Positions 25,278 to 42,908 of a DNA stretch of 64,000 bases are shown here, piece by piece. The stretch lies in contig NZ_CP021780.1 in assembly GCF_002192415.1 (NCBI RefSeq), positions 6,200,001 through 6,264,000 of the forward strand, read 5' to 3'. Positions within the stretch are counted from its first letter, which is position 1; every line of letters starts with the position of its first letter. The notes below the pieces were generated by a model. That model was not told the origin of the DNA, made no database searches, and saw only the letters and a program-made list of their open reading frames with translations. The translations under genes and the position numbers were made by a program. The stretch comes from Paenibacillus donghaensis (GTDB taxonomy: Bacteria > Bacillota > Bacilli > Paenibacillales > Paenibacillaceae).

Positions 25278-25559
25278 TCATTCCCCCGCAGTGCCCGGAC
25301 GGTCCTTGAAGGCCAGCTCGAACAATCCTGTAGCCGACAAGCCGGCCAGTCCACCCGACCATAGTCTGAGCACCCACGTAAGTTCGGTAAAAGGGTATGC
25401 CACCGCGCCCACCGCCAGTCCCGCCACCAGTCCAATAAGCGGGAGGGCGTTGCGCGGGAGCTTGATTGTTTTTTTGATCAGCTGTACCAATGCTACAATA
25501 AATACGGCCAACACCGTAGCAAAAGCCAACACCTGTTCCAGATTGTTGAGGTTATTCAT
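25278..25559 (-). CDS. phage-type holin
   Basis: 93 residues with two or three membrane segments (about 8-28, 37-57, 65-85) and a short charged tail, like Hol44/A118-type holins. It would make membrane holes that release the endolysin and the tail particles. Two in-frame starts lie two codons apart: the first (25565) is almost on top of AAGGGGG, the second (25559) has 7-nt spacing. Dual starts are a known timing device in holins. It overlaps the endolysin end by 8-14 nt and is the last gene of the tail cluster. Confidence 0.8.
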   Translation of the reverse strand: MNNLNNLEQVLAFATVLAVFIVALVQLIKKTIKLPRNALPLIGLVAGLAVGAVAYPFTELTWVLRLWSGGLAGLSATGLFELAFKDRPGTAGE

Positions 25560-26268
25560 CTCCATTCCCCCTTAATTGTGAGCTGGTAACTTCAACCGTC
25601 CGCGTAGCCGCAATATATCTCACCTGTGCACCAAGCGCTTCCGCCAGACTTCGGACAGGTACATAGGTTATTCCCTTATTCAGCATACCGTCTGCAATCT
25701 TAACTCCGTTCACTTGTACAACTGCTGTGTGTTCTGTCTTCATATCCTGCTTCTCCCCTTCTTTGTTAATCTTTTGGTACAACGCCTCGACGGAAGCGGC
25801 AGAAGGCTCCGCCCCACCGCGCAATTGAGCCAGGCTTAATCCGAACGCAATCTGCAAATGGGGATAGTCCCGGAAGCTGGTCCAATCTCCACCCCATTCA
25901 AAACCGAGCGCTTTCGCCTCACGGACGACTTCCTGCCAATCGGCTATCTCATCCCCGTTACCGTCACTACCGGTATCCCAGGAAACAGTCCGCCCATCTT
26001 GCAGCAGCAGCGCAAAATCAACCGCCAGCCCATAATTATGATAGCTGTAGCCGCCACGGGCATTGGTGACTATGGCTCCCTTGACGGTGCGCCCTTGCGC
26101 ATACAACGCGTTCTGCTCGGCCACGGTACGTAGTCCTTGGGTAATCAGAATCGGAATTCCGCGCTGGCAGCAATGTTCGGTTAGAGTCTGGGCGGCAACC
26201 CGCACTGCGGGGTGGAGGCCTTTCAGGCGTGTGGCGGATTTACTTTTTAGCTGGGTCAGAGTCAGCAT
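25552..26268 (-). CDS. endolysin, M15 peptidase with C-terminal copper-amine-oxidase-like domain
   Basis: 238 residues. Residues 1 to about 145 are a D-Ala/L-Ala-type M15 peptidase: QGLRTVAEQNALYAQGR, the zinc site SYHNYGLAVD and the later HLQIAFG, as in CwlK/Ply500 enzymes. It cuts stem peptides of the wall. Residues about 185-235 match the short stalk-like domain often called copper amine oxidase N-terminal (VQVNGVKI, ITYVPVRSLAEALGAQV), probably a wall-binding part. AAAGGAG lies 6 nt before the ATG. Its start overlaps the gene above by 29 nt. Confidence 0.88.
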   Translation of the reverse strand: MLTLTQLKSKSATRLKGLHPAVRVAAQTLTEHCCQRGIPILITQGLRTVAEQNALYAQGRTVKGAIVTNARGGYSYHNYGLAVDFALLLQDGRTVSWDTGSDGNGDEIADWQEVVREAKALGFEWGGDWTSFRDYPHLQIAFGLSLAQLRGGAEPSAASVEALYQKINKEGEKQDMKTEHTAVVQVNGVKIADGMLNKGITYVPVRSLAEALGAQVRYIAATRTVEVTSSQLRGNGDE

Positions 26269-26635
26269 GGCGTTCTCCTTTGCGGTCGAATTTCTTAATA
26301 TGCATGAATTGATCGTAGTTCCCCGAGCGGGTCAGCAAGGCCAGAACAACCAATCCAACCGTAGTCCCCAGCTGAGCCAAGGTCCAGGCATATCTCAGCC
26401 CTGCCAGCAACTCCGGCGAAGATAGGTGGGCGGCATCGGCAACAAGGATGAACAGCACCACGAGCATTTTAAACGTATACGCCAGCAGAAAAAAAAGCAT
26501 CGCCAGCATGAAGAGACTGACTACGCCTTTTTGGAAACGTTCATAGAAATAGGACTTATGGCTGTACAGAATATACAGCGCGCAGGCGATGGCCATGCCG
26601 TACAATATCATCAGCATGTAATCAATCATGTCCAT
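26240..26635 (-). CDS. small membrane protein of the lysis module
   Basis: 131 residues with three hydrophobic segments (about 6-24, 35-60, 82-104) and a charged C-terminus. Family not recognised. Start at 26635 with GGGGTGAG 4 nt upstream. It sits between two other small lysis-side genes, each overlapping its neighbour, so it is likely an accessory holin or a regulator of lysis timing. Confidence 0.65.
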   Translation of the reverse strand: MDMIDYMLMILYGMAIACALYILYSHKSYFYERFQKGVVSLFMLAMLFFLLAYTFKMLVVLFILVADAAHLSSPELLAGLRYAWTLAQLGTTVGLVVLALLTRSGNYDQFMHIKKFDRKGERHADSDPAKK

Positions 26636-26822
26636 GATGCTCACCCCGATCATAGATTAAATATTTGGCGAAGCGGTTATGCTTAATCTCCTCCTGGATT
26701 TCCTGCGACACATTCTGGTATTGGCTGATCGTCAAGGTGACGCGGACGGAGGCTCTGCGCAATTCCTTTGCTCTGGCGGCGTGCCGGGGGAGCAGCAGGC
26801 GCCTGATCCAATCTGAGCGCAT
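26622..26822 (-). CDS. small basic protein of the tail cluster
   Basis: 66 residues, arginine-rich in the first half, with a His-rich end. No membrane segment and no family recognised. GGGGGAG 6 nt before the ATG and tight overlap with the next gene support it as real. Confidence 0.6.
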   Translation of the reverse strand: MRSDWIRRLLLPRHAARAKELRRASVRVTLTISQYQNVSQEIQEEIKHNRFAKYLIYDRGEHHGHD

Positions 26823-26824
26823 CG

Positions 26825-27106
26825 TTAACTCCCCCTGTCTTCCGTGTGGTCAATCTTCAGCTTCTTCAGCACATCCAGTGTGGGCTGCATAAACTCCGAG
26901 CGTTCCTTGTCCAGAATCGCCTGTAGCCGGTCACGGTCCTCTTCCGCACGATCCAGTAGCTCACGCGGCACCAGGTTTCCTTTGACGATGGAGCGCAGCA
27001 GCAGCAGCAGGGCGATCATCAGAATCAGCGCCACCATATACGCCAGCCCGTACTTGTCCGCCAGCGGCAGTAGCCGCTCCAGCTGTGTGATATCTCCCTC
27101 TTCCAT
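26825..27106 (-). CDS. XhlA-like membrane-anchored coiled-coil protein
   Basis: 93 residues: short N-terminus, one strong membrane helix (about 19-37, YMVALILMIALLLLL), then a charged coiled coil. Similar in size and layout to XhlA-type partners of PBSX holins. Two Met codons lie two apart; the second has 7-nt spacing to AAGGGAG and was chosen. A terminator-like hairpin lies just upstream. Confidence 0.6.
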   Translation of the reverse strand: MEEGDITQLERLLPLADKYGLAYMVALILMIALLLLLRSIVKGNLVPRELLDRAEEDRDRLQAILDKERSEFMQPTLDVLKKLKIDHTEDRGS

Positions 27107-27132
27107 CTTCATGCTCCCTTCTTGTAATATGA

Positions 27133-27158
27133 CAAAAGCCCCCGGGCAAGCCGGGGGC
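27133..27158 (-). terminator. terminator inside the tail cluster
   Basis: GCCCCCGG-CTTGC-CCGGGGGC stem on the minus strand followed by TTTTG. It separates the tail-fibre transcript from the lysis genes about 25 bases further on, so lysis genes may depend on read-through. Confidence 0.65.
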
Positions 27159-27281
27159 AGCAAAAAGTCCAATCGCGATTTAGTTGCAAAAATGGTAACT
27201 GCTTTGGCCCCCGTTGGGTTGGAGCAGGTAAGTCTGATGGCCGCATCATTCCAACCCACTCTAGTCCATTCCAATAAAGAG

Positions 27282-27472
27282 AATTTAGTTGCGAATCCGC
27301 ATCTAATTTTCCGGTTTTTTCCTTTTCAGAGCAAATAAGTGCGAAAACGCAACTAATTTCGGGTTTTGAGCACTACAGAAGCGATTTACGCAAAATTAGT
27401 TGCAGATTTGCACTTATTTTCCCTTATCCAGCAGCTTCACCTGAAATTAGATGCACTTTCGCATCTAATTTC
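27282..27472. repeat. four copies of a palindromic AAATTAG-TGC element
   Basis: In the 490-base gene-free gap four imperfect palindromes of 28-30 bp lie at about 27282, 27331, 27391 and 27443. The consensus is AAATTAGTTGC, 5-6 free bases, then GCAACTAATTT, with TTGC/ATGC/GTGC variants and changes in one arm compensated in the other in the last copy. A degenerate fifth copy may lie at 27177. They would form hairpins in RNA or bind a dimeric protein. Confidence 0.7.
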
Positions 27473-27597
27473 TCTGGAGGGAAGTTCCAACGCAACACTC
27501 TACATCCTACATAACACCTAACTACCTGTAACTTTTATCACGGCTGCTTTTAGGAAAAATAAGGCTTAATTCCCCTATAACTACGAACGTAGGGCAA

Positions 27598-27705
27598 TCA
27601 GCTGCGTTCTTCCAACAACAGCCTTACATCCTCGCGGATGACGTTCGGAACCTCATCAATAGTCTTCAGCCCTTTGCGGATTAAACTCGCATAAATCTTA
27701 GGCAT
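27598..27705 (-). CDS. CD1375/XkdX-type small phage protein
   Basis: 35 residues, starting MPKIYASLIRKGLKTIDEVP and ending in a RED-LLLEE helix. This matches the short CD1375-type proteins found after tail fibre genes in PBSX-like clusters; role unknown. GGGAGGTG lies 7 nt before the ATG and the ATG shares one base with the stop of the gene above (TGATG). Confidence 0.8.
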   Translation of the reverse strand: MPKIYASLIRKGLKTIDEVPNVIREDVRLLLEERS

Positions 27706-28223
27706 CACCGCTCACCTCCCGCGGCCTGCCCGGCCAGTACAATTTCATACAGCTCGGTCAATGCCATCTGCGCGGTCGTCGCCTCTTCTTGCGCAGCCTG
27801 CAGCCGATCGGAATGCTCCGCCAGCGCAGTTTGCGCCTGCGCCAGCTGCTCACGGACCTGCTCGATCTCCGTCAGCTGTGGAGGCTTGTTGGCCTCTTCT
27901 TCCTGATAGGCCTCCCAGGCGGCTTGCAGTTCTTCTTCAGTTGGCTGCGGAACATCCAGGTTCCAGGCAGCAATGTAGGGACCGCGCTCTACCAAGTCGT
28001 AATCTTCACCTTCAGTCAGCAGATTGTAGTCGATGCCATAGCGGTAATGGACTCCCTCGACTGGCTCTCCGCCTTCCGTCGGTGGTTTGATCTCGTAACG
28101 GACCCGGCCTTTTCCCTCGGCCCCTTCCCGTAGCACAGGCTCAGGCCCATTGTCCTGTACGATAAAATCCCACATTGACTCAGCTTGCGGGTATAAATAC
28201 ATGATTGATAGTGCTATATTCAT
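27705..28223 (-). CDS. XkdW-like phage protein
   Basis: 172 residues. The N-terminal part (YLYPQAESMWDFIVQDNG, then YIAAWNLD-QPTEEELQAAW) matches XkdW-type proteins that follow tail fibre genes. The C-terminal third is a glutamine/alanine-rich coiled coil, which would suit a trimer or a fibre chaperone. It lies 17 nt after the fibre gene and overlaps the next small gene. Confidence 0.75.
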   Translation of the reverse strand: MNIALSIMYLYPQAESMWDFIVQDNGPEPVLREGAEGKGRVRYEIKPPTEGGEPVEGVHYRYGIDYNLLTEGEDYDLVERGPYIAAWNLDVPQPTEEELQAAWEAYQEEEANKPPQLTEIEQVREQLAQAQTALAEHSDRLQAAQEEATTAQMALTELYEIVLAGQAAGGER

Positions 28224-28240
28224 GGGCTGTTCTTCCCTCC

Positions 28241-29758
28241 TTATGCAATCCTTATGATAGAGGCGTGTGTATTTTCGTCCTTATAATTCACAGTTGCAGC
28301 AGCATTTACAAAAACGTGAAAATCTACTGTGTAGCCTGCTAGGAGTCGTAAAATACTAGCGCCCGATATAGTCAATCCGTTAGTTGCATTTTGCCATGTT
28401 TCGGCCAATACCGTATTTACAGAGCCATTAACGTAAAGCATTAATTGATTATAACCAGATGCCCCCGTTATCCCAACGCGACAATTGACTAAATAATAAC
28501 CCGTTTCTGGTGCTACAAACCGGGAGTTTGGTATATCGCAAGTATTTTTTTGATTGTTTGCAGAAAAAGTGAAAATAATTTTTGAGATCGTACTAGCAGC
28601 GATGCTCTGCCCGCCGCTCGAAAACCTTGATAGGTCGCCAACGGGTCTTGTTGTATCCGTATTATCTCCCCATGGGTTAATAACACCACCACCCCCAATG
28701 TCACCGCCCGCTGTCACATACTCAGGGGTCGCGCCTGATGGTTGCGTACCATGTTTAGACACCTTCCCAAAGTAAACTGATATGCCATATGCGTTACCTG
28801 TACCCACTTGCCACACATATGACACAACGGTCACCGCACCGTTTACGTTTAGTGCTGCATTACGGTTACTTGCCAAACATCCGTTTACGGCCACCATTCC
28901 ACCGCCACCAATGTCGAACCCCGGTTGAGTAGGTGCGGATGAAATAATGCTGCAAGCATCAAATCCTAAGTTAAGATTACTACTTGCGTAGAAGCCCGCT
29001 CCTGCTGTGTTTGTTGCTCTGAATCCTTTAATATATATCGCAATCGTATTATGAATCACATAAAATCCTGTAGCTTGGCGACTTAAACTAACTACTGTAT
29101 CGCCTAGTAAGTCCAATCTCCCCGAACCAAAAAAACCTTGAATGGTTACGACTTCAGCGTAAGTTCCCGCAGCCACATTAATCGTTACGGCATGATTCAC
29201 AATCTGTGGAATGACACTTATGGCCTTCCCAATCGTTCTGAAAGCCCCACCCGTCGTATTCGCCAGCCCATTATTGCTGTCATTCCCATCCGTCCGCACA
29301 TAATACGTCAGCGCCGCCGTAGTCTGCTGCGGTGTGGTCACCAGCGGAGCCTTCCCATTCAACTGCCCCTGAATCCCGCCAGTCAAACCATCCAGATAAC
29401 CAAACTCCGTATTGGAGACTACGCCGGTTCCGATCTTGGTGGCATCAATCGCAGCAGCGGCGTTCACGTCTGCATTCACAATGGCTCCGGCGGCAATCGC
29501 GGTCACTCCGTCTCCGGTGCTGATTACATCCCCTGTATGATTCGGATGAGTATAGGCGTTGGCTCCCGCCGCGATCCCCGCCAGCTTGCTTTTCTCGGCT
29601 GCCGTATAATCATTAGTCGACAGTTGCTTGCCGCTGACCTTATCCACTTTGGCGGCAACAGCCGTGTCCAGTACATCCATATTGCCGTTCAGATCGGCGA
29701 TATCGACAATGTCCGTCCCTTCCGGCTTCTTCAGTCCCAGATTTCCAGTTGTCTTCAT
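28241..29758 (-). CDS. tail fibre / receptor-binding protein
   Basis: 505 residues. The N-terminal part (1 to about 145) is a typical fibre shaft with LKKPEGTDIVDIADLNGNMDVLD and short collagen-like or repeat strands. The middle (about 150-385) is a right-handed beta-helix beginning YVRTDGNDSNNGLANTTGG, a DUF1565-like start. The last about 110 residues form a C1q/TNF-like jelly roll (GYYLVNCRVGITGASGYNQL region). This last part should contact the target cell. Base use shifts from GC-rich in the N-terminal coding part to AT-rich from about 29200 downwards, which suggests that the receptor end was swapped in. Confidence 0.85.
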   Translation of the reverse strand: MKTTGNLGLKKPEGTDIVDIADLNGNMDVLDTAVAAKVDKVSGKQLSTNDYTAAEKSKLAGIAAGANAYTHPNHTGDVISTGDGVTAIAAGAIVNADVNAAAAIDATKIGTGVVSNTEFGYLDGLTGGIQGQLNGKAPLVTTPQQTTAALTYYVRTDGNDSNNGLANTTGGAFRTIGKAISVIPQIVNHAVTINVAAGTYAEVVTIQGFFGSGRLDLLGDTVVSLSRQATGFYVIHNTIAIYIKGFRATNTAGAGFYASSNLNLGFDACSIISSAPTQPGFDIGGGGMVAVNGCLASNRNAALNVNGAVTVVSYVWQVGTGNAYGISVYFGKVSKHGTQPSGATPEYVTAGGDIGGGGVINPWGDNTDTTRPVGDLSRFSSGGQSIAASTISKIIFTFSANNQKNTCDIPNSRFVAPETGYYLVNCRVGITGASGYNQLMLYVNGSVNTVLAETWQNATNGLTISGASILRLLAGYTVDFHVFVNAAATVNYKDENTHASIIRIA

Positions 29759-29769
29759 CTCACACTCTC

Positions 29770-30381
29770 CTAACTGTAGATTCTTAACTCATTCCAGCTT
29801 CTGGTCTGGGCCTGATTCCAGGTCATTGCCCGGAGCGTAGTCCACCAGGTATAGCTGTAGATAAATTCATAATCCAGATGTGCCGGTTTAATCTCCTCAA
29901 TCATCTGGATCAACCCTGCCATATTCGGCGGAATGCCCAGTGTGCTGACAAAACGGATCTGGAAGCGGTATTCGCCCGGCACCTCACTCACCTCGACCAC
30001 GCCTCCGGAGAAGGCCGATGCCGTCCGCTGAATCATCTCTGGCGTAGTCGTACCTGCTCCCCGCAGCTTAGCCTTGATCATCTCTCGTCGGGTGGCATAG
30101 GACTTCGAAGTGTCCTGGGTTAATCCCACTTCCGACTCCCAGCGTCCCAGACCCCAGGTAGCCGTCTCTACAAATGCCTGATCCAGTACATCCAACCCAT
30201 CTGCCAGGAGACGACCGATTTCCAGGCCGATCCTCTCCTGCAGCTCCTCCATTTCCCTGACACCCTGGTAATAGTCCGGGAGATAACGCATCAAATCGCG
30301 CGGCACGCTGCCGCCGGGATCAACCGCCGGATCTGTACCGGCGTACAACAAGGAGCCGTAACGCGATTCACCATAGTTCAT
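29770..30381 (-). CDS. XkdU/YmfQ-like baseplate protein (DUF2313)
   Basis: 203 residues. It has the DUF2313 pattern: LMRYLPDYYQGVREMEELQ near the start, an acidic-helical middle (WGLGRWESEVGL), then a beta-strand end with PAHLDYEFIY. In contractile tails this is a small wedge component that links the baseplate to the fibres. It follows baseplate J with two fibre-like genes in between, an order slightly different from PBSX. Confidence 0.85.
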   Translation of the reverse strand: MNYGESRYGSLLYAGTDPAVDPGGSVPRDLMRYLPDYYQGVREMEELQERIGLEIGRLLADGLDVLDQAFVETATWGLGRWESEVGLTQDTSKSYATRREMIKAKLRGAGTTTPEMIQRTASAFSGGVVEVSEVPGEYRFQIRFVSTLGIPPNMAGLIQMIEEIKPAHLDYEFIYSYTWWTTLRAMTWNQAQTRSWNELRIYS

Positions 30382-30384
30382 TCG

Positions 30385-30723
30385 CTACACTCCCTTCAGC
30401 TGATTCCAGGTCAGTGGGCCTGTATTCAAATATTCGCTATGCGTATGTGTCGCTGGCGGATAAAGCGCCGGTTTCCCGGCCACGCCCGACCAAGCCACGC
30501 TGTCCGCCATCTGGGCATAATCGACTTTGCCGTTATTATTCGTGTCATAGATGCTTTTGAGCATATCGCCGGTGCTTTGGGCAGCCACCAGCAGCACATT
30601 GCTGACCGTGGTTCCGATGTACAGCTTGCCTGTATCTGTACAATAGCCCAGCTCGCCGACGGCCAGCCTGCCCAAGGCGCTTTCCAGTCCGCGGCGAATC
30701 TGGATCAATGTCTTCAGAGCCAT
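30385..30723 (-). CDS. short fibre-like protein
   Basis: 112 residues. It begins with the same repeat module (RRGLESALGRLAVGELGYCTDTGKLYIGT) that opens the neighbouring large fibre, then has a calcium-loop-like DTNNNGKVD and the fibre word THTHSEYL. It looks like a duplicated and shortened adapter domain. Function inferred only from position and sequence style. Confidence 0.65.
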   Translation of the reverse strand: MALKTLIQIRRGLESALGRLAVGELGYCTDTGKLYIGTTVSNVLLVAAQSTGDMLKSIYDTNNNGKVDYAQMADSVAWSGVAGKPALYPPATHTHSEYLNTGPLTWNQLKGV

Positions 30724-30735
30724 TGCGCTCGCCTC

Positions 30736-31758
30736 CTAAAATGTACCCCCGTCGATACTCGCGACTGTGAGCTTATTGCCATTGGCCGCATCATACACGA
30801 TGCTGCTTCCATCAATATTCGCGGCTACGCCAGCCGCATCCACACTAATGCCCTTGCCGGCAGTCACGGCGATGGCATCCGCGCTGACTCCAATCCCGTA
30901 GCCTGTGCCGATATGGAGCGTTACACTGTCAGCTTGCCCTCCGCCGGTCAGGCCGTTGCCGGCGGTAATCGTCTGCAGTGCGCCTCCGGTCCGCACCCAG
31001 GCGCTGCCGTTCCAGCTGTAGATTTTCTGCTCATCGTCCACATAAGCCGTCCAGCCTACTGCCGGAGCATAGAACACCCAGGCGGAGGATTGGTATTCCG
31101 CGATCTGCCCCGTCTTCCCTGACCATGCACCAGTCGCTAACGCTGGAATGATATACCGGTCGCCTTCCACCGGACTGGCGAGCGGAGCCGCCAGATTCTG
31201 GTCTTTGACCGAAGCCTGCGGTTCAATGTTGTGCTTCGCCAGCTCAATCTCATTCCTGATCTTCTGCGCAGACCAGAGATCTGTAATGGCCGCTCCGGCA
31301 TCATTAATCGTCCGGTGCTTGGAAGCATCCTCGAGATGGGTTCTGATCTCGGCGGCCGTCTTCACATTCGTTCCATCCGATACCTTATTGACATGCCCTG
31401 CGCTGATATCTGCCTTCAGCACCTTCGCATAGGTGGAGCCATCGGCAATATCGTCAACGCTTCCGGTAAGATCGCTCAGCTTCTGGGCATTGACCCGCCG
31501 CCAACCACTGGCGTCATCGAAATAGAGGTAACCTGCATTCGTGCCTGTGGTTACATAATAGAGCCGTCCGGCCGCTCCTGCGGCAGGCCGCGAAGCCTCC
31601 GGCCCGGACAAAGCCCGGCCCACCAGCGAATTCGCAGTTCCATCGCCAATGTATACCTCCTTCGTATCTGTACAGAAGCCCAGTTCCCCGGCCTTTAGAG
31701 CACCATAAGTGGTCAGCTCAGCCTTGGTGCCGCGTTTCATTTGAATGGTCTGTGCCAT
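30736..31758 (-). CDS. tail fibre protein with DUF2793-like domain
   Basis: 340 residues. Start chosen at MAQTIQMKRG (31758) with AGAGGTG 4 nt upstream. The N-terminal adapter GELGFCTDTKEVYIGDGT is shared with the short neighbour. Residues about 185-270 form a DUF2793-like domain (ASPVEGDRYIIP ... AWVFYAP-GWTAYV). The C-terminal part is a glycine-rich beta-strand repeat. It ends in IDGGTF, a motif also seen at the end of the next upstream gene, as if one handled the assembly of the other. Confidence 0.75.
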   Translation of the reverse strand: MAQTIQMKRGTKAELTTYGALKAGELGFCTDTKEVYIGDGTANSLVGRALSGPEASRPAAGAAGRLYYVTTGTNAGYLYFDDASGWRRVNAQKLSDLTGSVDDIADGSTYAKVLKADISAGHVNKVSDGTNVKTAAEIRTHLEDASKHRTINDAGAAITDLWSAQKIRNEIELAKHNIEPQASVKDQNLAAPLASPVEGDRYIIPALATGAWSGKTGQIAEYQSSAWVFYAPAVGWTAYVDDEQKIYSWNGSAWVRTGGALQTITAGNGLTGGGQADSVTLHIGTGYGIGVSADAIAVTAGKGISVDAAGVAANIDGSSIVYDAANGNKLTVASIDGGTF

Positions 31759-31759
31759 G

Positions 31760-32173: not shown

Positions 32174-32175
32174 AG

Positions 32176-33948: not shown

Positions 33949-33952
33949 CCTT

Positions 33953-34915: not shown

Positions 34916-34926
34916 ACGTTTCCCTC

Positions 34927-35628: not shown

Positions 35629-35629
35629 G

Positions 35630-37684
35630 TTAGGTGTACACCCCCTGCGCCGTAGAGACAAACTGCTCATTCAGCTTCTGTCCAATCTTGGTGATGATCG
35701 AGTCAATATCCCCTGCATTGTTGATATTCCCTGTGGTAACCTGCACCGTCGGCGTCAGTTCGACAAAATTCTGGATCGCCTGGATCTCCGCCAGCTCGCG
35801 CAGCATCTTCAGGTCGTCGCTCGAAATGTCCACAGTGCCGTCTACGGCCCCTACAGAATTTACTTTGTTGACGTTGTTGATGTTCGTTGGAGCAGATGTA
35901 TTTTGAAAAGAAGTATTGCGAACCGGCGTTGAATTCAATCCAGCTGGAGCATTAGGAACCTTTGGAAGCTTAGGCTGTTCAGGGACAGGAGGCATTTGAG
36001 GAATCTTCGCTTCGTCACCCGGATGCATATTGTTCCACTGAGTAGTGTTCGATTCATTATTCGTATTCCCGCCTATGTTCATGCCTTCCTTTAACTTGTT
36101 GATATCGAAATTCTGTGTAAAATCGGCAGCAGAGTCAAATGTATTCTCAATACTCATTTGTACATCCTGTTTGAACTGGCTGCTGTCTACATTTTCGAGA
36201 TGAAGATTAATTGCCGACTCAATCCCTACAAATTTCCCGACTGCCCCAACGACTTTATTAATTCCGCTTAACAAAAAATTGGCGGCGTCAATCACACCGT
36301 TAATAAAACCGGTCCAAAGATCAATCACATACCCTACGAAATCAGCCACGATTTGCCCCAATGCGCGAAACATATTAGCCAGAAAATCACGCACAGGCTG
36401 AAGGGCTGCAACGATACCGAGAAAAGCCACAATCAACGCAATGACCAGACCGATCACAAGCGCAATCGGATTGGCATTCAGTATGGCGTTATAAACCGCT
36501 TGTGCAGCAGTGGCAATACCGGTTGCTATGGCTGACATATTGGTAGCAATAGCCGCTGCTCCCATTGCTATCTGATAAGCTACAACGCCCGCAACAATCC
36601 CCAGCAATAGCGGAAGAACCACAGGCAGTGTGCTGCTCAGTACGCTCCAGAGGAACAGCGCACCTTCCACTACAGCGGAGAAGCCTTGTGCCAATAAGGC
36701 AAGCCCGATGGCCATCCCGTCAATAATCGGCTGGAAGGTTCCGTCTGCGAACGCTGTATTCAACATCTCAAGCAGTGGAGCCAGGGCTTGCAAAGCCCCT
36801 TCCCCCATTAACGCCAATGAATTATTGTAATTGCCAAGCAGTGTCTGCCACTGGTTCACCGGAGAATCCATCATGGTCTGCAGCGCAGCGCTGGTCATTC
36901 CGGCTGTGGTCATAATGTTGCCCAGTGTGCTTAAGAAGGCTTCCATATTGCCCGTTTCTGCTACCAGATCGAGGCCTCCCAGCTCTTCTTCATCCAACTG
37001 CAGCATCGAGGCCAGATCCCCCGAATCCCCCTCAAAAGCAGACGTGATCGCGGATGAAGTATCCCCAATATCCTTGCCTTCCGGTGACATCATACTGAGT
37101 CTGGTGGAATAATCCATCAGCTGATCCAGTTGCTCGGTATTCTGCGTCTTGGGATAGAACGTCAAGGCACTTTCCATGGACTTGTTCACATCCTGGCCGG
37201 TTGCAAGTGCCCGCTGTTTGAATTTCTCAAACATGGCCAATCCCACATCGGCATTGCCTGTTTTGGCTTTAAACAGATCCTCCCATTTCTGCTGTTCCGC
37301 TGCAGGTCCAAGCACTTTTTCCATGACAGCTTTGACTTTCTCCGCGACTCCCTTGACCTTCTCAAAGACTCCGGTAAATTTCTCCCAGGTTCCCGCCTGC
37401 TGCTCTGCCCCTTCAGCGCCATCCCCTGCGGCATCGTTAAGTCTCCCCTGGGCTTGAGCAGCGCTATTGATTGAGGCCTCAATCCGGGTATATGCAGAAC
37501 TGTAATCATTAATAATGTTATACACCGGTTTGTTGACTACCTTCATACTGATCCGGTTCAGCGTTGCCGAGAAGGAATTCGAGATATTCGCCGACACCTG
37601 AGTACTGATCTGATTTGTAATATCAGTAAGACATTGATTGGAGATTTGCTGGATGCCTGCCATGTTGTTTTGTACACCTGCCAT
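35630..37684 (-). CDS. xkdO: tape measure protein
   Basis: 684 residues. Helical N-terminal half, a glycine/alanine-rich hydrophobic block of several membrane-like helices (about 335-470, e.g. VVLPLLLGIVAGVVAYQI), then a proline-rich linker and a Thr/Asn-rich end. It sets tail length; at roughly 0.15 nm per residue this would give a tail near 100 nm. Start at 37684 with GGGGGGTG upstream. The C-terminal end has the VDISSDDLKMLRELAEIQA segment common to these proteins. Confidence 0.92.
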   Translation of the reverse strand: MAGVQNNMAGIQQISNQCLTDITNQISTQVSANISNSFSATLNRISMKVVNKPVYNIINDYSSAYTRIEASINSAAQAQGRLNDAAGDGAEGAEQQAGTWEKFTGVFEKVKGVAEKVKAVMEKVLGPAAEQQKWEDLFKAKTGNADVGLAMFEKFKQRALATGQDVNKSMESALTFYPKTQNTEQLDQLMDYSTRLSMMSPEGKDIGDTSSAITSAFEGDSGDLASMLQLDEEELGGLDLVAETGNMEAFLSTLGNIMTTAGMTSAALQTMMDSPVNQWQTLLGNYNNSLALMGEGALQALAPLLEMLNTAFADGTFQPIIDGMAIGLALLAQGFSAVVEGALFLWSVLSSTLPVVLPLLLGIVAGVVAYQIAMGAAAIATNMSAIATGIATAAQAVYNAILNANPIALVIGLVIALIVAFLGIVAALQPVRDFLANMFRALGQIVADFVGYVIDLWTGFINGVIDAANFLLSGINKVVGAVGKFVGIESAINLHLENVDSSQFKQDVQMSIENTFDSAADFTQNFDINKLKEGMNIGGNTNNESNTTQWNNMHPGDEAKIPQMPPVPEQPKLPKVPNAPAGLNSTPVRNTSFQNTSAPTNINNVNKVNSVGAVDGTVDISSDDLKMLRELAEIQAIQNFVELTPTVQVTTGNINNAGDIDSIITKIGQKLNEQFVSTAQGVYT

Positions 37685-37699
37685 CTTTTCACCCCCCAA

Positions 37700-38301
37700 C
37701 TATCTTTTCCTGCCCTTACTGCGCGCACGCTCCTGCTTCTCCTTCTCCACCCGGACAGAGATCATCGCATAGATCGCCGCGCGTTCGCGGGAAGAGAACT
37801 TCATCAGCTCATGCGGCAGAATATGCAGCTCATGGAGGGCGTAGTAAGCCAGATTGGCTTCACTGTCGCCCTCGTTGATTAGTTTTTTACGTCGTCCACC
37901 AGCTCGTTCATATCGGTGCCGAAGCCGTTCAGCGCCTGCACCCGCTCACCGAGCGCCGCGAACTCGCCGGGGAGCAGCATTTTGCGCAGCAGCGCTTCAG
38001 CGCCAAGCACATTGTACGAGCGCTGCAGCTCGGCATTTTTCAGATCCGGGTGTACCACACTGGAGGTCATCAGCTTGGCCATGTAATCGTTGGGCTCGAT
38101 CTCCGAGGTGTACACCCCGTTTTTGCCCTTGATTTTGCGGGTAGCAGCCTTGCGGCATTCCTGGTTCTCATCTTCGTTCATGCTGCGCAGCTTCCAGGCT
38201 ACCGCCTTGCCCTCTTGATCCTTAAAACGCAGGGAAACTACGTAGTCCTCCGTGGCATCACATGCCGCATTCTGTGCATAGAACAAACTTAATTCACTCA
38301 T
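37700..38301 (-). CDS. tail chaperone long form made by -1 frameshift
   Basis: At 37888-37882 the minus strand has the heptamer A AAA AAC in the zero frame. A -1 slip there avoids the stop at 37881-37879 and continues for 60 codons to a TAG at 37702-37700. The extension reads L-I-N-E-G-D, then YYALHELHILPHELMKFSSR, then a coiled KEKQERARSKGRKR tail. Short-plus-long chaperone pairs made this way (gpG/gpGT) are a known rule in long-tailed phages. The 200-residue form would recruit tube protein to the tape measure. Seen in sequence; slippage itself is inferred. Confidence 0.85.
37879..38301 (-). CDS. xkdN: XkdN-like tail assembly chaperone, short form
   Basis: 140 residues. Carries the family pattern: LRSMNEDENQECRKAATRK, IEPNDYMAKLMTSSVVHPDL and LLPGEFAALGERVQALNGFG. 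It binds the tape measure while the tube grows. AAAGGAGG lies upstream of the ATG. The last codons are GTA AAA AAC followed by TAA, a slippery site, so a longer form is also made (next entry). Confidence 0.92.
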   Translation of the reverse strand: MSELSLFYAQNAACDATEDYVVSLRFKDQEGKAVAWKLRSMNEDENQECRKAATRKIKGKNGVYTSEIEPNDYMAKLMTSSVVHPDLKNAELQRSYNVLGAEALLRKMLLPGEFAALGERVQALNGFGTDMNELVDDVKN

Positions 38302-38320
38302 TGTTATCCTCCTTTAGGTG

Positions 38321-38352
38321 AAAGACCCGCCGCATCAACACGTCCGGGTCTT
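38321..38352 (-). terminator. intercistronic hairpin after the tube gene
   Basis: AAGACCCG/CGGGTCTT stem with a 16-nt loop, followed on the minus strand by TTTCACC. The weak U-run suggests partial termination or a stability element, which would give more sheath and tube than downstream baseplate products. Confidence 0.55.
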
Positions 38353-38386
38353 ATTTACTCTTCATTCAGTTCTTGATGTCAGTGTC

Positions 38387-38857
38387 CTACAGCCCCGCTC
38401 CCGCCGGAGTGCCAAAAGGCTTCACAAGCTGCACATCCTCAAACGTGAAGCTAACCTCCTCTTCCAGCGCATCCGACTCTGTATCCAGTGAGGCCATAAT
38501 CACACTGTCCAGGTTCACACCCTTCAACATAATCCGCTGCGCCCCCACACTGGAGGATGGATCATCATTGGTGACCTCAATATCGAAATATTGGTCAATC
38601 CCTGTATTCATATAGCTCAGCATCATCTCACGGAAACGGCTGGTCATATAAAAAATCGTCATCGTGCCGCTCCCCGACCAGCCGGTCGCTTTATGCTGCA
38701 CCCCGCGGCGTCCCAGCGTCTTCACTTCAGCTTTCGTTTTCTCTACTGTTGCTTCCAGCGTCTTCACATAGAACATTTCCTCCGTCTGGGTACCAATTAC
38801 CGCATAGGCACGGCCCTCCTGGCCGGAGATCGTATCACTTGCTTTCAAAAATGCCAT
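38387..38857 (-). CDS. xkdM: tail tube protein XkdM
   Basis: 156 residues. Matches XkdM: starts MAFLKASDTISGQEGRAYAV, with VKTLGRRGVQHKATGWSGSG and the C-terminal VSFTFEDVQLVKPF. It polymerises into the inner tube. AAGGTGG precedes the ATG, overlapping the end of the sheath gene. Confidence 0.95.
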   Translation of the reverse strand: MAFLKASDTISGQEGRAYAVIGTQTEEMFYVKTLEATVEKTKAEVKTLGRRGVQHKATGWSGSGTMTIFYMTSRFREMMLSYMNTGIDQYFDIEVTNDDPSSSVGAQRIMLKGVNLDSVIMASLDTESDALEEEVSFTFEDVQLVKPFGTPAGAGL

Positions 38858-38858
38858 C

Positions 38859-40181
38859 TTAAACCACCTTCACTTTCATATATACTTTTTCTACGGAATC
38901 CACAGGTTTCACGGCAACCTCAAGTACGATACTGTCGCTGTCCGCTCCGGCGGCCACCACAATATCACTCTGGGCATCGAAGTTGTCAATGGCTCCCAGG
39001 TTCTGCAGTTCATTCATATACGTGGCGCACTGGGACCAGAACAACGCACGACCATCTTCATTATTGGCAACCTTGCCAATATAATAGCGCTCAAACATCG
39101 TCTTTAGATCATTCGCAATCCCGTCCAGTACCCGCAGCACACGGTTTTTAGAGAAGGCCTTACCTTTTTCAGGAGAGTAGCTTGTAAAAGTATTAATATC
39201 CTGCTCCACCACCGCGCGGCCTCCACTATACGTAAACACCAGCTCACCGCCGAGCAGCGCAGCTGATGTTGAAGAGTGGCTGAGGCGCACATCGGCATCC
39301 ACCGCATCATCGTAACCCTGGTAGGTCAGCGATTCATTGACGGCAGCTGCGGCGGTTGCACCGGCAACCCAGGCTACGGCAGCGGTTTTGTTGATCACCG
39401 TGCCGTCGCTCAGCACCACACCGTTCTTGACGCTGATTACTCCTTCATATCCGGCTGTCGCGTAATCCGCCACTACGGCTTGTACCTTCTTGCCTTCTGT
39501 TTCACGCAGCCGCTTCACAAAAGCGCTATACAGCGCCTTCAGCGTATTCTCATCAGACAGCAGCCCCACGGTCTGGAAGTTCTGCACCTCCAGGGCCGTC
39601 AGGAAATCACTATGCTGCTGAGGAGTTACCACCCCATTGGCCCCACCTGCAAGCGGCATGCCGGCAGTCACTTTCAACCCCTCCGTACCGTCCTTTTCAA
39701 AATCGAGAACATCGTTCGCAGCCAGTTCCTCAGCCTTGCTAACGGTTTGTTTGTCGTATTCGGCTCCCGCCAGCAATGTCTTCACATCGTAAAGCGTGTT
39801 ATTCTCCACGTTCTTCTCGATCACTACCGAAACATCATTACCGCGTTCACCGCCATAGCGGGCAGTAACATGCAGGCCATTCGCGGTAGCTTGCGCCTTT
39901 ACTCCTTCATTCAGCCGGTATAGTAGCAGTGTTCCTGCCCGCTTCAGCGCCTCACGCACGGGACGCAGGCTGCTGTGGGTCAGCCCATAGCCGAGCAACT
40001 TCTCCATATCGTCCTGTGGGGTAAGCTTCAAGATGGCTCCAGCCTGGCCCCAGGAGAGTGTCAGCGCCAGCGCCGTCACCCCGCGTTCTCCCATTTTGCC
40101 GATGCTGCTCTGATTTGTTGCCACATTTACATAAACTCCGGGTCGCACCTTGTTTTGTGTTGTCCATGTTCCTCCAGCCAT
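38859..40181 (-). CDS. xkdK: contractile tail sheath protein XkdK
   Basis: 440 residues. Opens MAGGTWTTQNKVRPGVYVN, the sheath family start, and has the subtilisin-like fold words GGANGVVTPQQHSDFLTAL and a C-terminal helical part ending KVDSVEKVYMKVKVV-like. Presence of a sheath proves that the particle is contractile. Start at 40181 behind TAGGAGG; 12 earlier codons were left out. Confidence 0.95.
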   Translation of the reverse strand: MAGGTWTTQNKVRPGVYVNVATNQSSIGKMGERGVTALALTLSWGQAGAILKLTPQDDMEKLLGYGLTHSSLRPVREALKRAGTLLLYRLNEGVKAQATANGLHVTARYGGERGNDVSVVIEKNVENNTLYDVKTLLAGAEYDKQTVSKAEELAANDVLDFEKDGTEGLKVTAGMPLAGGANGVVTPQQHSDFLTALEVQNFQTVGLLSDENTLKALYSAFVKRLRETEGKKVQAVVADYATAGYEGVISVKNGVVLSDGTVINKTAAVAWVAGATAAAAVNESLTYQGYDDAVDADVRLSHSSTSAALLGGELVFTYSGGRAVVEQDINTFTSYSPEKGKAFSKNRVLRVLDGIANDLKTMFERYYIGKVANNEDGRALFWSQCATYMNELQNLGAIDNFDAQSDIVVAAGADSDSIVLEVAVKPVDSVEKVYMKVKVV

Positions 40182-40235
40182 TGAATAACCTCCTAAATAA
40201 ATTGTTGGATAATCCACATCTGCCTGAATACAGCC

Positions 40236-40415
40236 CTACAGCGCAAGCGGGGTCTTCAGATACGATTCCAGCTTTTGCTTGCTTTCTTCCAGCGTATACT
40301 GCTGATCTGCCTGCAAAATAACCTGCAGCACATCTTTTTCCGCCGCTGCAAACAACGCCGAGTTTACCAGCTGCGTTTTGCCAAACACTGGCTCATTAGT
40401 TCTATTTGCCTTCAT
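40236..40415 (-). CDS. small tail-cluster protein
   Basis: 59 residues, starting MKANRTNEPVFGKTQLVNSA and ending in a lysine/leucine helix (EESKQKLESYLKTPLAL). Its ATG overlaps the stop of the tail terminator gene by four bases (ATGA), and GGGGAG precedes it. Its position between the tail terminator and the sheath matches a small gene seen in PBSX-like clusters. Function unknown. Confidence 0.75.
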   Translation of the reverse strand: MKANRTNEPVFGKTQLVNSALFAAAEKDVLQVILQADQQYTLEESKQKLESYLKTPLAL

Positions 40416-40825
40416 TTCAACCGCTCCCCTCCCGACATCCGGGCAATCTTCTGTGCCTCAGTCCGTTCACTCTGCAGATAGAGCATGAAATCCGCTGTAA
40501 ACAGTGGCCCCTCCTCTGCTGCTCCTGCTTCCCAGGCTTGTCTGACAATTCGGTAAGCCCCCGCTTCGCCTTGCATCATTGCCAGTGCTTCACTCAGCCC
40601 GTCAGCGCAATGTTCGCCTTCCAGCAGGCTTGCTTTCTTGTACCGGATGCCAAACCGATAGATCGCCATATATCTTCCCTCACGCTGTCTGTCATAGGTT
40701 GCCGAGATTAATCCGGGATAGAAATAAGCTTCCCCCGGTTCCTCGCCCCCGTCATACACCGGCACTTCAGGATAATACTGTTCAAGCGCTCTAATAATCT
40801 GGCCTCTCAGCTGTTCTACTGACAT
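40412..40825 (-). CDS. tail terminator-like protein
   Basis: 137 residues. Starts MSVEQLRGQIIRALEQYYPE, then a beta-rich core with YMAIYRFGIRYKKASLLEG, as in phage tail-terminator family proteins (DUF6838 type). It would cap the tube and sheath. In a tailocin this is the top end, since no head is attached. Start at 40825 with GGGAGG well placed; the 34 earlier codons overlap a hairpin leader and are not coding. Confidence 0.8.
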   Translation of the reverse strand: MSVEQLRGQIIRALEQYYPEVPVYDGGEEPGEAYFYPGLISATYDRQREGRYMAIYRFGIRYKKASLLEGEHCADGLSEALAMMQGEAGAYRIVRQAWEAGAAEEGPLFTADFMLYLQSERTEAQKIARMSGGERLK

Positions 40826-40859
40826 CTTTAGGCCTCCCCTCCCAGATCTGCCGATAAAT

Positions 40860-40898
40860 AAAGACGGATACAATCCAATGTGGATCATATCCGTCTTT
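40860..40898 (-). terminator. hairpin in the leader of the tail operon
   Basis: Perfect 11-bp stem AAAGACGGATA/TATCCGTCTTT followed on the minus strand by TTTATTTATC, only 35 nt before the first tail gene and about 65 nt after a candidate promoter. It could act as an attenuator that ArpU or another factor must overcome. The rest of the 389-base gap holds no gene. Confidence 0.6.
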
Positions 40899-40962
40899 CC
40901 TAGGCTCCTGCCAAAAGAATCTTTCACCGCGACAGTGGTTCCAAGCCCTTGACGGGCGGGAC

Positions 40963-40985
40963 ATTATAGTAGAGCATTCATGCTC
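40963..40985 (-). promoter_or_regulatory. candidate tail-operon promoter with dyad
   Basis: Minus strand TATAAT at 40968-40963. Directly upstream is a 14-bp dyad GAGCATGAATGCTC (40985-40972) in place of a good -35 box, which fits an activator-dependent promoter. Confidence 0.45.
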
Positions 40986-41156
40986 CTGCGGTGTTCTTTT
41001 GCTTCATTTGCCATGTTATAATCTTACACCCCCGGCTGCAGCATGGAGACGGCTTAAGGGCTGTCTTAGGATGAACATAGGGATGGAATACAGCGGTTTT
41101 GAGTTGGTGCAAATGCTGGAACCCAAGCAAAGCAGACTTTCCCTCTTCACACCACA

Positions 41157-41193
41157 ACAAAAAAGCCGTACCGCCCATATTGGGCAATACAGC
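41157..41193 (-). terminator. arpU terminator
   Basis: Stem arms GCTGTATTGCCC and GGGCGGTACGGC (with G-U pairs) and TTTTTT on the minus strand, about 20 nt after the arpU stop. It isolates arpU from the tail operon. Confidence 0.8.
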
Positions 41194-41214
41194 TCCTGTT
41201 CGTCTGCTTACTTG

Positions 41215-41727
41215 TTACTTGTACATATCCGTATGCTGCATCTCTGCCTCTGCACCCGGCTGTCTGTTTGTCAGCAGGGAGTGAAGCGAGATCAAGCCCA
41301 GGTCGGTCAGCGCCAGTGCCATTTTATAAAAAGCCTTGGAACGGATCTTCACATACGTATCCTTGCTGACCGGTGGATCAAACACATGATTGTATACCGT
41401 ATAGTCATACGTCTCATCCCTGCGCATATAACGCTCGCGGACCAGTTGCTGTTCTCTTGTATCCAATCTTTCGACAACGGAGTCTATGGCTGAGCAGAAG
41501 GCTCTTCGAGCGGCAGGCACGTCCACATTATGAGCAGCTATAGCCGCAGTCTGATCAGTAATCTTATGGGTAGGTCCGTGAAATCTTTCGGTATACGAAT
41601 AAGTCGTTCCAGCCTCCTTGGCTTCAAAGGTCACCGTCTTAAATATCCGGTATTTCTCCAGCATGTTCTCTATGGCTACCTGTGTCCGCCGACGGTCGAG
41701 CTCAGGCAGAGAAGATAAATTCATCAT
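41215..41727 (-). CDS. ArpU-family late transcription regulator
   Basis: 170 residues. Matches ArpU-type phage late activators: RRRTQVAIENMLEKYRIFK, then REQQLVRERYMRRDETYDY, and a C-terminal helix-turn-helix resembling sigma region 4 (PVSKDTYVKIRSKAFYKMA). It probably turns on the tail operon directly downstream. AAAGGAG lies 7 nt before the ATG. It is divergent from the XRE repressor; the shared 281-base region should contain their operators. Confidence 0.85.
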   Translation of the reverse strand: MMNLSSLPELDRRRTQVAIENMLEKYRIFKTVTFEAKEAGTTYSYTERFHGPTHKITDQTAAIAAHNVDVPAARRAFCSAIDSVVERLDTREQQLVRERYMRRDETYDYTVYNHVFDPPVSKDTYVKIRSKAFYKMALALTDLGLISLHSLLTNRQPGAEAEMQHTDMYK

Positions 41728-41801
41728 ATTAACACTCCTTTAGATTAAGTAATTGATATTAATCTTGCAGTTTTCCCTTCAAAAATATGATAGAATAACT
41801 C

Positions 41802-41822
41802 TTGTTCGTATGTTGTTCGTAT
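41802..41822. promoter_or_regulatory. direct-repeat operator between arpU and xre
   Basis: TTGTTCGTAT occurs twice, at 41802-41811 and 41813-41822, an 11-bp spacing that puts both on the same helix face. It is just upstream of a TATAAT-like box. A likely site for the XRE protein; it does not match the inverted LexA box. Confidence 0.5.
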
Positions 41823-41912
41823 TTTTCTATAATATACCACTTCTTTCCCAAATTCGTAAAACCCGGTTTACGGCCATTTAAGCTCATGTACAGTGGATTA
41901 TCTCAGCTTCTC

Positions 41913-41926
41913 TTGCCTTTTGGCAA
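41913..41926. promoter_or_regulatory. TTGCC-N4-GGCAA palindrome upstream of xre
   Basis: A perfect palindrome 83 bases before the xre start. It overlaps a TTGGCA word that may serve as -35 box. Possible autoregulatory site. Confidence 0.35.
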
Positions 41927-42008
41927 TGATATACGCATTACTGTTTACCTATTGGCATATTTAGCTTATATTAATAGCAAGAGCTAATAGGGATAGGAGT
42001 CGGTAGTG

Positions 42009-42461
42009 ATGAGACCAACATTTGGAGATTATCTGAAACAGCTTCGTGAGGCTAAAGGACTGACGATTAACGATCTGGCGGCTTCCGCCGGAATCAGCGG
42101 TTCACAAATATCAAGGATAGAGAATGGAATACGTGGAGTTCCCAAGCCGGTTACACTGCGCAAAATTGCCGAAGCTACAGGTGTGGCTTATGAGGAATTG
42201 ATGGACCATGCAGGCTATATGCAGGAGACGAAGCAGAGTGAAGAGGCTATCCCGGCTTGGGCTACCTCCAAGGACAAACGAGATTTCCGCAAAATGCTTG
42301 AGGACGACGGAGAACTGATGTTTGACGGAATCCCACTGGATAAAGAAGATCGGCAGCGCATTAAGGATGTGCTGACAGGGCTGTTCTGGGAAGCGAAGCA
42401 GATGAATAAAAGGAACAAGAAACCGGACGATACTGAACCAAAATCAGGTAAACAACGCTAA
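42009..42461 (+). CDS. XRE-family repressor
   Basis: 150 residues. N-terminal helix-turn-helix (about 8-65): FGDYLKQLREAKGLTINDLA and GISGSQISRIENGIR. The C-terminal part is charged and may oligomerise. Start at ATG 42009, 9 nt after AGGAG; a GTG directly before it is possible. It likely represses arpU or the tail operon. It is followed after about 30 nt by an ImmA-type protease, the known pairing in which the protease cuts the repressor on induction. Confidence 0.85.
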   Translation: MRPTFGDYLKQLREAKGLTINDLAASAGISGSQISRIENGIRGVPKPVTLRKIAEATGVAYEELMDHAGYMQETKQSEEAIPAWATSKDKRDFRKMLEDDGELMFDGIPLDKEDRQRIKDVLTGLFWEAKQMNKRNKKPDDTEPKSGKQR

Positions 42462-42494
42462 TTCAACCCTAATAACTGGCTGCAGGTGAAGAGA

Positions 42495-42908
42495 ATGGAT
42501 AAACTGATCAATAAACTGATTCATAAATACAAAACCAACTGTCCTTTTGAGCTATCTAAGGCACTGGGTATCCATATCCGTTTTATCAACCTGGGTACGG
42601 GGACTAAGGGGTTATACTACCGTAAATTAAGAAGAAGATTTATTGTCATCCATAATGAGTTGCCTCTGGAATGGCAGCGTTTTGTTTGCGCGCATGAACT
42701 GGGACATGACCGGCTGCATAAGGGGGTCAACCGTTTTTTTCTCGAAGAGAAGTCCTATTTCTCACCCGGCAAGCTGGAACGGCAGGCCAATGTATTTGCG
42801 TTGAAGCTGCTGTCCGCAGGAACCTCACCAGATCCGGATGAATCGTGGCATAGTTATTATTTAAGAATCGGGCTTCCGCACGAGGTCCATTTTTTGCAGG
42901 ATGATTAA
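42495..42908 (+). CDS. ImmA/IrrE-family metallopeptidase
   Basis: 137 residues. Zinc site HELGH (about residue 67) with a later glutamate in LERQANVFA, the pattern of ImmA/IrrE proteases. It would cleave the XRE repressor encoded just upstream and so switch on the tail cluster, as in ICEBs1 and several prophages. ATG 42495 follows AGGTGA; three earlier codons from a GTG are possible. Confidence 0.88.
   Translation: MDKLINKLIHKYKTNCPFELSKALGIHIRFINLGTGTKGLYYRKLRRRFIVIHNELPLEWQRFVCAHELGHDRLHKGVNRFFLEEKSYFSPGKLERQANVFALKLLSAGTSPDPDESWHSYYLRIGLPHEVHFLQDD

Follow-up and report, generated by a model that had tools for sequence, protein, structure and literature searches.

Is a complete contractile tail without a head, set among the genes of a soil bacterium's chromosome, a weapon kept by its host or the residue of a phage? 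The question is raised by a gene cluster at positions 25278-42908 of a 64,000-nucleotide stretch of Paenibacillus donghaensis DNA (contig NZ_CP021780.1, positions 6,200,001 to 6,264,000; hereafter the window), which belongs to the single 8.54-Mb chromosome of the source genome (G000). Judged from sequence comparison, the cluster is most probably, at roughly 88%, a domesticated and vertically inherited Paenibacillus tailocin of the R type, whose fixed site lies between ppc and a tRNA/rRNA array. We read it in this way because a complete tail, lysis genes and regulators occur without head genes, and because synteny, mostly intact reading frames and purifying selection accompany them. The main interest lies in two of its parts: a tape-measure gene that is exchanged as a cassette, and a structured leader RNA.

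Families were assigned by comparing 28 open reading frames (ORFs) with PHROGs and 20 queries with Pfam (minus strand, 25278-41727; plus strand, 42006-42908). The contractile tail is complete and follows the PBSX order, and is joined by two fibre genes, XkdW, a holin, an endolysin, an activator, an XRE repressor and an M78 protease. The tail genes occupy the minus strand and are read from right to left, from the activator to the holin, and the XRE and M78 protease genes occupy the plus strand. These matches agree with the content and order of tail and lysis genes claimed in an initial annotation of the sequence, and the ArpU and XRE/ImmA control that it named was recovered as the phrog_248 activator, XRE and the M78 protease ("ArpU" being that reader's naming; PHROGs says "transcriptional activator"). 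Two gene limits were moved after alignment with relatives, the sheath start from 40217 to 40184 and that of the terminator gene to about 40825. The features are listed below; counts out of 46 refer to the tail-gene loci fetched for comparison, namely G000, 44 other ppc-linked loci and part of G042, with G021 and G043 left out.

25278-25565, minus: holin, Hol118-like (phrog_1299, E 1.5e-18; PF06946, E 8e-9); tblastn homologue in 35/46 loci
25552-26268, minus: endolysin of the M15 peptidase type, C-terminal domain Cu_amine_oxidN1-type (phrog_2649, E 2e-45; PF13539); 45/46 loci
26240-26653, minus: small membrane protein (by eye) without a family match; homologue in 35/46 loci
26622-26822, minus: small protein without a family match; homologue in 35/46 loci
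26825-27130, minus: small lysis-end protein, by eye a membrane protein, likened to XhlA from its position only; no family above the cut-off; 35/46 loci, and persisting in remnant loci
27705-28223, minus: XkdW-type fibre partner or chaperone (PF09636, E 1.5e-21; phrog_8746)
28241-29758, minus: variable tail fibre or receptor-binding protein (weak C1q-like match at the tip, E 0.018); only the N-terminus conserved in many relatives
29770-30381, minus: baseplate protein Gp48 (PF10076, E 6e-34; phrog_521)
30385-30723, minus: short Mtd_N-domain protein (PF18454, E 4e-10)
30736-31764, minus: second fibre, Mtd_N and DUF2793 (PF18454, PF10983); 36/46 loci, well conserved
31760-32173, minus: phrog_18608 protein adjoining the fibres (E 2.6e-40)
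32176-33234, minus: Baseplate_J protein (PF04865, E 1e-57)
33227-33655, minus: baseplate wedge subunit (phrog_120, E 1e-26)
33652-33975, minus: DUF2577 protein (PF10844, E 8.5e-18)
33953-34915, minus: XkdQ-like hub/tail protein (phrog_400, E 5e-91)
34927-35670, minus: XkdP-like LysM protein (phrog_380, E 2.5e-65; LysM)
35630-37684, minus: tape measure protein, type C (phrog_1068, E 5.5e-76), with central hydrophobic segments and a conserved C-terminus
37879-38301, minus: XkdN-like tail assembly chaperone (phrog_389, E 4e-44)
38387-38857, minus: tail tube protein (phrog_365, E 2e-54; PBSX XkdM 2guj, E 4e-37)
38859-40184, minus: contractile tail sheath (phrog_279, E 1e-132; 3hxl, E 3e-149; diffocin CD1363, E 4e-18)
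40236-40415, minus: 59-residue ORF between terminator gene and sheath, outside the family scans; tblastn homologue in 46/46 loci
40412-40825, minus: tail terminator (PF20765, E 7.6e-11)
40861-40897, minus: intrinsic-terminator-like hairpin with a T-rich tail, after the leader RNA (-23.0 kcal/mol)
40901-41014, minus: conserved structured leader RNA of four helices (alignment and covariation), without an Rfam family
41021-41026, minus: late-promoter -10 hexamer, TAAGAT in the window, conserved at fixed spacing
41051-41107, minus: CC-type motifs in steps of about 11 bp upstream of the promoter, a candidate activator site (by eye, alignment and consensus)
41215-41727, minus: ArpU-type late transcription activator (phrog_248, E 7e-27)
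41728-42005, no strand: divergent control region (alignment of 22/46 loci; promoters by eye)
42006-42461, plus: XRE repressor resembling capH (family scans, PADLOC)
42486-42908, plus: ImmA/IrrE (M78) protease resembling capP (PF06114, E 2e-15; capP, E 3.6e-11)

As the initial annotation had proposed, no capsid, portal, terminase, replication or integrase match was found among the 28 window ORFs scanned with PHROGs (the ORF at 40236-40415 was left out); in the other 45 loci, headlessness was judged from ORF similarity and by eye. For two proteins PHROGs gives "head and packaging" as a secondary label, for the one at 30385-30723 as a minor head protein (E 1e-4) and for the one at 29770-30381 through phrog_21322 (E 4.5e-13), which is outscored by tail families. 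The sequence features by which a tailocin is recognized were found: genes for a contractile tail, from sheath, tube and tape measure to hub and baseplate, without head, packaging, replication or integrase genes; a lysis cassette of holin and M15 endolysin; a variable receptor-binding fibre with its partner; and a fixed chromosomal site where the genes are largely intact and under purifying selection. The heads of PBSX-like defective phages package host DNA, and nothing in the locus matched the capsid, portal or terminase of such a head. Clusters of extracellular contractile injection systems (eCIS) include effector genes and an ATPase of their own. Three lysis-end ORFs lack a known function and might suit an injection system with a non-killing role, such as effector delivery or action on eukaryotic cells, but the lysis cassette and the phage-type baseplate and fibres argue otherwise, and no ATPase- or effector-like protein was seen among the scanned ORFs (general PHROGs and Pfam models, none of them eCIS-specific), so that such a role is most unlikely.

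The source genome also contains a second contractile-tailed prophage (G000:C1:3.395-3.42 Mb; L102, L103) with a terminase, a portal, a head protease and a head-type structural gene. Its presence speaks against a tailocin, since the cluster could instead be a tail module completing PBSX-like or gene-transfer-agent-like particles whose heads are encoded elsewhere. However, the 3.40-Mb prophage carries its own sheath (25% identical to that of the window), an XkdQ-type protein and a tape measure, and among the 48 close-sheath genomes, 36 lack a second sheath at E ≤ 0.001 (head genes there were not searched). The initial annotation had named heads elsewhere as what would overturn it; a head-bearing contractile element does exist in the same genome, but with tail genes of its own, and shared heads are extremely unlikely.

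All of the 100 genus genomes searched have ppc; a sheath match of some kind was found in 78 of them, and a sheath at least 69% identical in 48. When the locus between ppc and the rRNA operon was compared across Paenibacillus, as the initial annotation had suggested, the sheath lay on the ppc contig, in the strand and order of the window, in 45 of these 48 genomes, and on a different contig from ppc in the other three (G021, G042 and G043). The core genes are largely open and alike in length over the 46 loci. At E 1e-60, 143 of the 295 family genomes contain a relative of XkdQ, and outside the genus these are mostly 39-51% identical among the matches listed.

Several observations nevertheless tell against a maintained tailocin. 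A close sheath is lacking in 52 of the 100 genomes. Of 16 sheath-less sites that were also fetched, six (G064, G075, G071, G048, G044 and G091) keep several gene fragments, and a seventh, G090, retains a match to 18% of the lysin. Clear frame breaks were found in the tape measure of G017, the tube of G052 and the lysin of G095, and some further ORFs stood out as short or unusual in length, among them s59 in G052, TM149 in G056 and XkdW in seven loci. The remaining nine sheath-less sites have no cluster gene, and in seven empty loci only about 360-630 bp separate ppc from the first tRNA. Because fragments remain at sheath-less sites, some lineages have lost the cluster. Presence and absence require at least 12 changes on a ppc tree (61 rows, quick method; G028 is not in the tree), which is in line with repeated loss, although the count cannot separate gain from loss. 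An attachment scar, sought as a copy of the tRNA-Pro 3' end on the ppc side, was found in none of the loci.

These fragments, together with the three clear core-gene breaks in 46 full loci, are what a defective prophage in slow decay, unselected for killing, would leave. The core genes, however, are open in nearly all of the 46 loci, and their dN/dS of about 0.03-0.16 and distances that correlate with those of ppc (Spearman 0.53-0.87) point to long maintenance. Nei-Gojobori dN/dS medians were taken over 126 close pairs (fewer for some genes), using the longest ORF piece of frame-broken genes for these and for pair identities. The medians were 0.028 for the tube, 0.029 for XkdN and for ppc itself, 0.054 for ImmA, 0.061 for the sheath and ArpU, 0.062 for XkdQ, 0.067 for XRE, 0.077 for fibre354, 0.096 for Baseplate_J, 0.105 for Gp48, 0.108 for the tape measure within type, 0.143 for the lysin, 0.155 for the terminator gene and 0.269 for TM137; the variable fibre gave 0.392 with a dS of 1.6. 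Purifying selection acts on the core, and its dS, mostly 0.35-0.7, is comparable to the 0.50 of ppc, as vertical descent would predict. Decay as the general state of the locus is very unlikely: the initial view of closely packed, intact genes holds for a largely open core and fails in the three broken relatives, the decay that it had said to look for appears clearly only in those three and, as fragments, at seven of the 16 sheath-less sites, and its preference for an R-type bacteriocin over a decayed prophage is borne out by synteny, mostly open core genes and purifying selection.

Some other arrangements were noticed during these comparisons. Extra ORFs lie between ppc and the lysis genes in nine loci (G001, G002, G037, G038, G056, G057, G068, G078 and G081); by eye, four of them form an ABC transporter set with a metallo-beta-lactamase-fold gene, and a LysR-like ORF is added. 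A second sheath family (mostly 55-63% identical) exists elsewhere in the genus, often with a sheath of about 33% identity some 10-14 kb away (for example G070:C1:6241063-6253658, G010:C27:139725-151457 and G023:C5:179491-192135), and such tandem double-sheath clusters are possibly two tailocins in one locus. Eleven IMG/VR contigs of 15.7-17.7 kb (L207-L217), catalogued as viral, carry tailocin-locus genes in the stretches fetched.

Two genes depart from this conserved background. Close pairs are defined here as loci whose sheaths share at least 95% identity. Median identity in them is 0.91-0.99 for the other genes (TM137 0.88, XkdW 0.83), whereas it is only 0.51 for the fibre (55 pairs); for the tape measure (56 pairs) the median is 0.90, but the 10th percentile falls to 0.29. 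Five tape-measure types were recognized, A (18), B (14), C (12, including the window), D (1) and E (1), all of them with central hydrophobic stretches, and the type differs in 23 of the 56 close pairs, spanning 25 genomes. In three mapped pairs (G045/G066, G009/G059 and G037/G057), the neighbouring genes are 0.95-0.97 identical in DNA and the divergent block 0.39-0.48; one edge of the block falls near the start of the tape-measure gene and the other 220-260 bp short of its stop, and the C-terminus is conserved (for types C and D, 84.5% across 84 residues). Among types A-C, the ppc tree requires no fewer than 13 changes of type, with the single D and E loci excluded from the count. Within a type, tape-measure identity drops along with sheath identity, which suggests that the types are old and that different species share them. 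G009 and G095 share a fibre (94% identical) but not a tape-measure type, and thus the two genes can move apart.

On these sequences the tape-measure gene behaves as an exchange cassette beside the fibre. Because the fibre tip and the tape measure are both swapped as cassettes between species, the tape measure probably serves as another module of specificity or killing, one that would act at the membrane. According to the excerpt of a review, tape measures have membrane-spanning regions that help to form a pore (PMC10538166), and nine homology groups of tape measures were noted for carotovoricin in a paper whose available text goes on to concentrate on fibres (PMC13195805). The present cassette would offer a testable case of a second step of specificity, following receptor binding, which that text touches on only in passing.

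The second element is, like the tape-measure cassette, an addition to the initial account. Between the ArpU gene and the terminator gene lies a near-invariant block that begins 6 nt after the -10 hexamer; on the minus strand of the window it can be folded as a 114-nt leader RNA (40901-41014) of four nested helices. The 48 leaders taken from the tailocin site were reduced to 47 (remnant G075 removed), then to 41 (six near-identical ones dropped), of which 40 were aligned (G092 removed). In this alignment, which was not fitted to the structure, 98.5% of 756 cells pair; six of 19 pairs are changed on both sides, a number matched by 3 of 500 shuffles, and the covariation score is reached by none of 500. 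The hexamer is within two mismatches of TATAAT in all 48 tailocin-site copies (remnants included) and in 14 of 19 other copies, against a background of 4.1%.

That the block is instead a short coding sequence or a DNA operator in which pairing arose by chance is suggested by a short frame from ATG in the consensus and by parts so invariant as to resemble an operator. Insertions and deletions between relatives shift that frame, and a small gene was rejected on this ground together with the covariation. Chance pairing is opposed both by the unfitted alignment and by a second one fitted to the model, in which 12 of 19 pairs show two-sided changes and none of 500 shuffles does as well; a reading other than RNA is accordingly very improbable. 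No Rfam 15 family reached its gathering score on the leader in the window and nine other loci, and at a lax threshold the stretch gave two matches at chance level. Among the titles listed in open-licence literature on ArpU, processive antitermination and tape-measure pores, nothing concerned this leader.

A covariance model found the leader at one place in its own genome and in 55 of the 100 genus genomes, 48 times at the tailocin site and at eight places in seven further genomes. The 48 site matches comprise 47 of the 48 sheath carriers and the remnant G064; the exception, G092, has tail genes but lacks the hairpin part of the RNA, which counts against the overall reading. Enlarging the model with the other copies raised the count to 57 of 100. 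In the family, 43 of 295 genomes matched, 13 of them from other genera, one of which (L198) looks false and was rejected by eye as a terminator hairpin. A wide spread is not supported, because the 12 matching genomes in a class-level search of 398 with the enlarged model all belong to the window's own family.

Twenty neighbourhoods of other leader copies were fetched. In L183, L184, L185, L188, L196 and L200 a terminase or portal lies downstream on the same strand (PHROGs; the nine proteins scanned were two small terminases, five large terminases and two portals), and several further copies resemble this arrangement by eye, whereas by eye no late operon could be made out clearly at L187, L197, L198, L201 and L202. 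In L193, which comes from another genus, ArpU, the leader RNA and tail genes follow the window's order with XRE/ImmA adjoining. An ArpU-family match lies within 55 kb on the same contig in seven of 10 copies elsewhere in the genus. The source genome itself has four ArpU-family matches (three beyond the locus) and one leader, and ArpU and leader are therefore not always linked. An alignment of 49 copies (45 distinct), which leans towards the model because it was fitted to it, has 95.2% of 831 cells paired and 99 cells with two-sided changes against 30.8 in shuffles, and slid versions pair at 56% or less. As a separate observation, L197 (another genus) holds three leader-model matches in about 7 kb (8045-8149, 11153-11258 and 15111-15223), among small membrane-protein-like ORFs and with no obvious phage genes by eye.

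The control region offers a possible route of induction. In an alignment of 22 of the 46 loci it has two kinds of conserved repeats, a pair of the TTGCCTTTTGGCAA type close to XRE and a pair of direct repeats, TTGTTCGYAT, close to ArpU. Among nine proteins given to PADLOC only XRE and ImmA were matched, as a capH/capP pair. Such pairs are released by DNA damage, and the likeness suggests the same for the present cluster; it must be set against this that an exact LexA-type box (CGAAC-N4-GTTCG) is absent from the 46 loci. In the proposed scheme, XRE would hold the ArpU-type activator off until DNA damage activates ImmA, which would remove XRE, and ArpU would then activate late transcription from a promoter at about 41015. 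The resulting RNA would begin with the folded leader and have to pass a terminator before the tail genes. Because the leader starts the transcript and the terminator precedes the tail genes, it most likely gates the late operon, by antitermination or attenuation. The tape measure would then set the tail length during assembly, holin and endolysin would lyse the producer, the variable fibre would bind the wall of a neighbour, the sheath would contract, and the tube with the tape measure would breach the target membrane. Particles, killing of rivals and induction by damage are in this sense what we infer for the cluster.

An antitermination leader is an RNA close to the promoter, followed by a terminator that precedes the late genes. 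Of the tailocin-site leaders 30 of 47 are arranged in this way, as are 16 of 23 other copies, and the lack of universality counts against a general gate. At the tailocin site the terminator-like site lies just after the RNA; in 16 of 23 other rows, against none of 26 tailocin rows (some rows being near-identical), the RNA itself encloses a hairpin of terminator type with its T-run. Helix 3 would close around the terminator in many phage copies and stand in front of it in the tailocins. We advance only tentatively, at somewhat less than even odds, the wider proposal that the leader represents a new class of cis-acting RNA gating ArpU-dependent late transcription in phages and tailocins, in which the folded leader would carry RNA polymerase through an intrinsic terminator, alongside two independent exchange modules, the fibre on the outside and the tape measure on the inside, of which the latter would confer killing specificity at the membrane. 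If true, one RNA would control both phage morphogenesis and a tailocin within this family, as a Gram-positive counterpart of lambda Q/put. In lambda PR'/Q/tR' and HK022 put antitermination, a leader and a terminator lie right behind the late promoter; those leaders are presumably unrelated in sequence to the present one. To our knowledge ArpU has not been described as an antiterminator.

The genus Paenibacillus includes biocontrol strains and bee pathogens. A tailocin conserved in it would be a source of narrow antibacterials, and the leader RNA a handle on late-gene control in ArpU-type phages and tailocins. In short, the cluster is very probably a tailocin fixed across much of the genus. No Paenibacillus tailocin appeared among the titles listed or in the excerpts of open-licence literature (including PMC9406221, PMC10931772, PMC9854653 and PMC12961389), subscription journals not being covered.

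The cluster is bordered on both sides by housekeeping genes (10 flanking proteins were scanned), with glmS, glmM, cdaA and ppc on the left and 12 tRNA genes, an rRNA operon, pdaB, PPK2 and cwlD on the right. An ordinary glmS ribozyme adjoins glmS at 15086-15294 of the window, and an extra 5S gene lies at 47866-47982 between the 16S gene and tRNA-Ile, besides the 5S gene after the 23S.

Among known systems, as far as excerpts of the papers cited describe them, the closest in kind are the Gram-positive R-type tailocins such as the diffocin of C. difficile (CD1363/CD1364; PMC6088184), a headless contractile tail to which the locus is likened by its genes. The likeness extends to the sheath (8v3t, E 4e-18) and the tube (E 1e-10), but the two are distant in sequence and belong to different genera; the nearest solved sheath is 3hxl, followed by Lin1278 and diffocin. 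PBSX-type elements and the tail-like bacteriocin of Brevibacillus laterosporus (PMC9406221) share Xkd-type tail genes with the cluster, whose tube is a relative of XkdM. A capsid protein is described for PBSX and a terminase for PBSX-like elements (PMC9406221), whereas the window locus has no match to either, and the activator named in the Brevibacillus region is Xpf (PMC9406221), not of the ArpU type. The closest sheaths in the phage collection, at 48% identity, are those of Jimmer1 and related Brevibacillus myophages, which have the tail order of the window with extra genes between tube and XkdN, but are full phages with heads, terminase and portal. The carotovoricin of Pectobacterium (PMC13195805) resembles the cluster as a genus-wide tailocin with a swapped fibre locus, and differs in its Gram-negative host and in an invertase present in about half; the available text makes no mention of a leader RNA. 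Localised recombination of the receptor-binding protein and its chaperone, similar to that seen here, is described for the R-type syringacins (PMC6331570), for which the tape measure and sheath served jointly as the comparison phylogeny.

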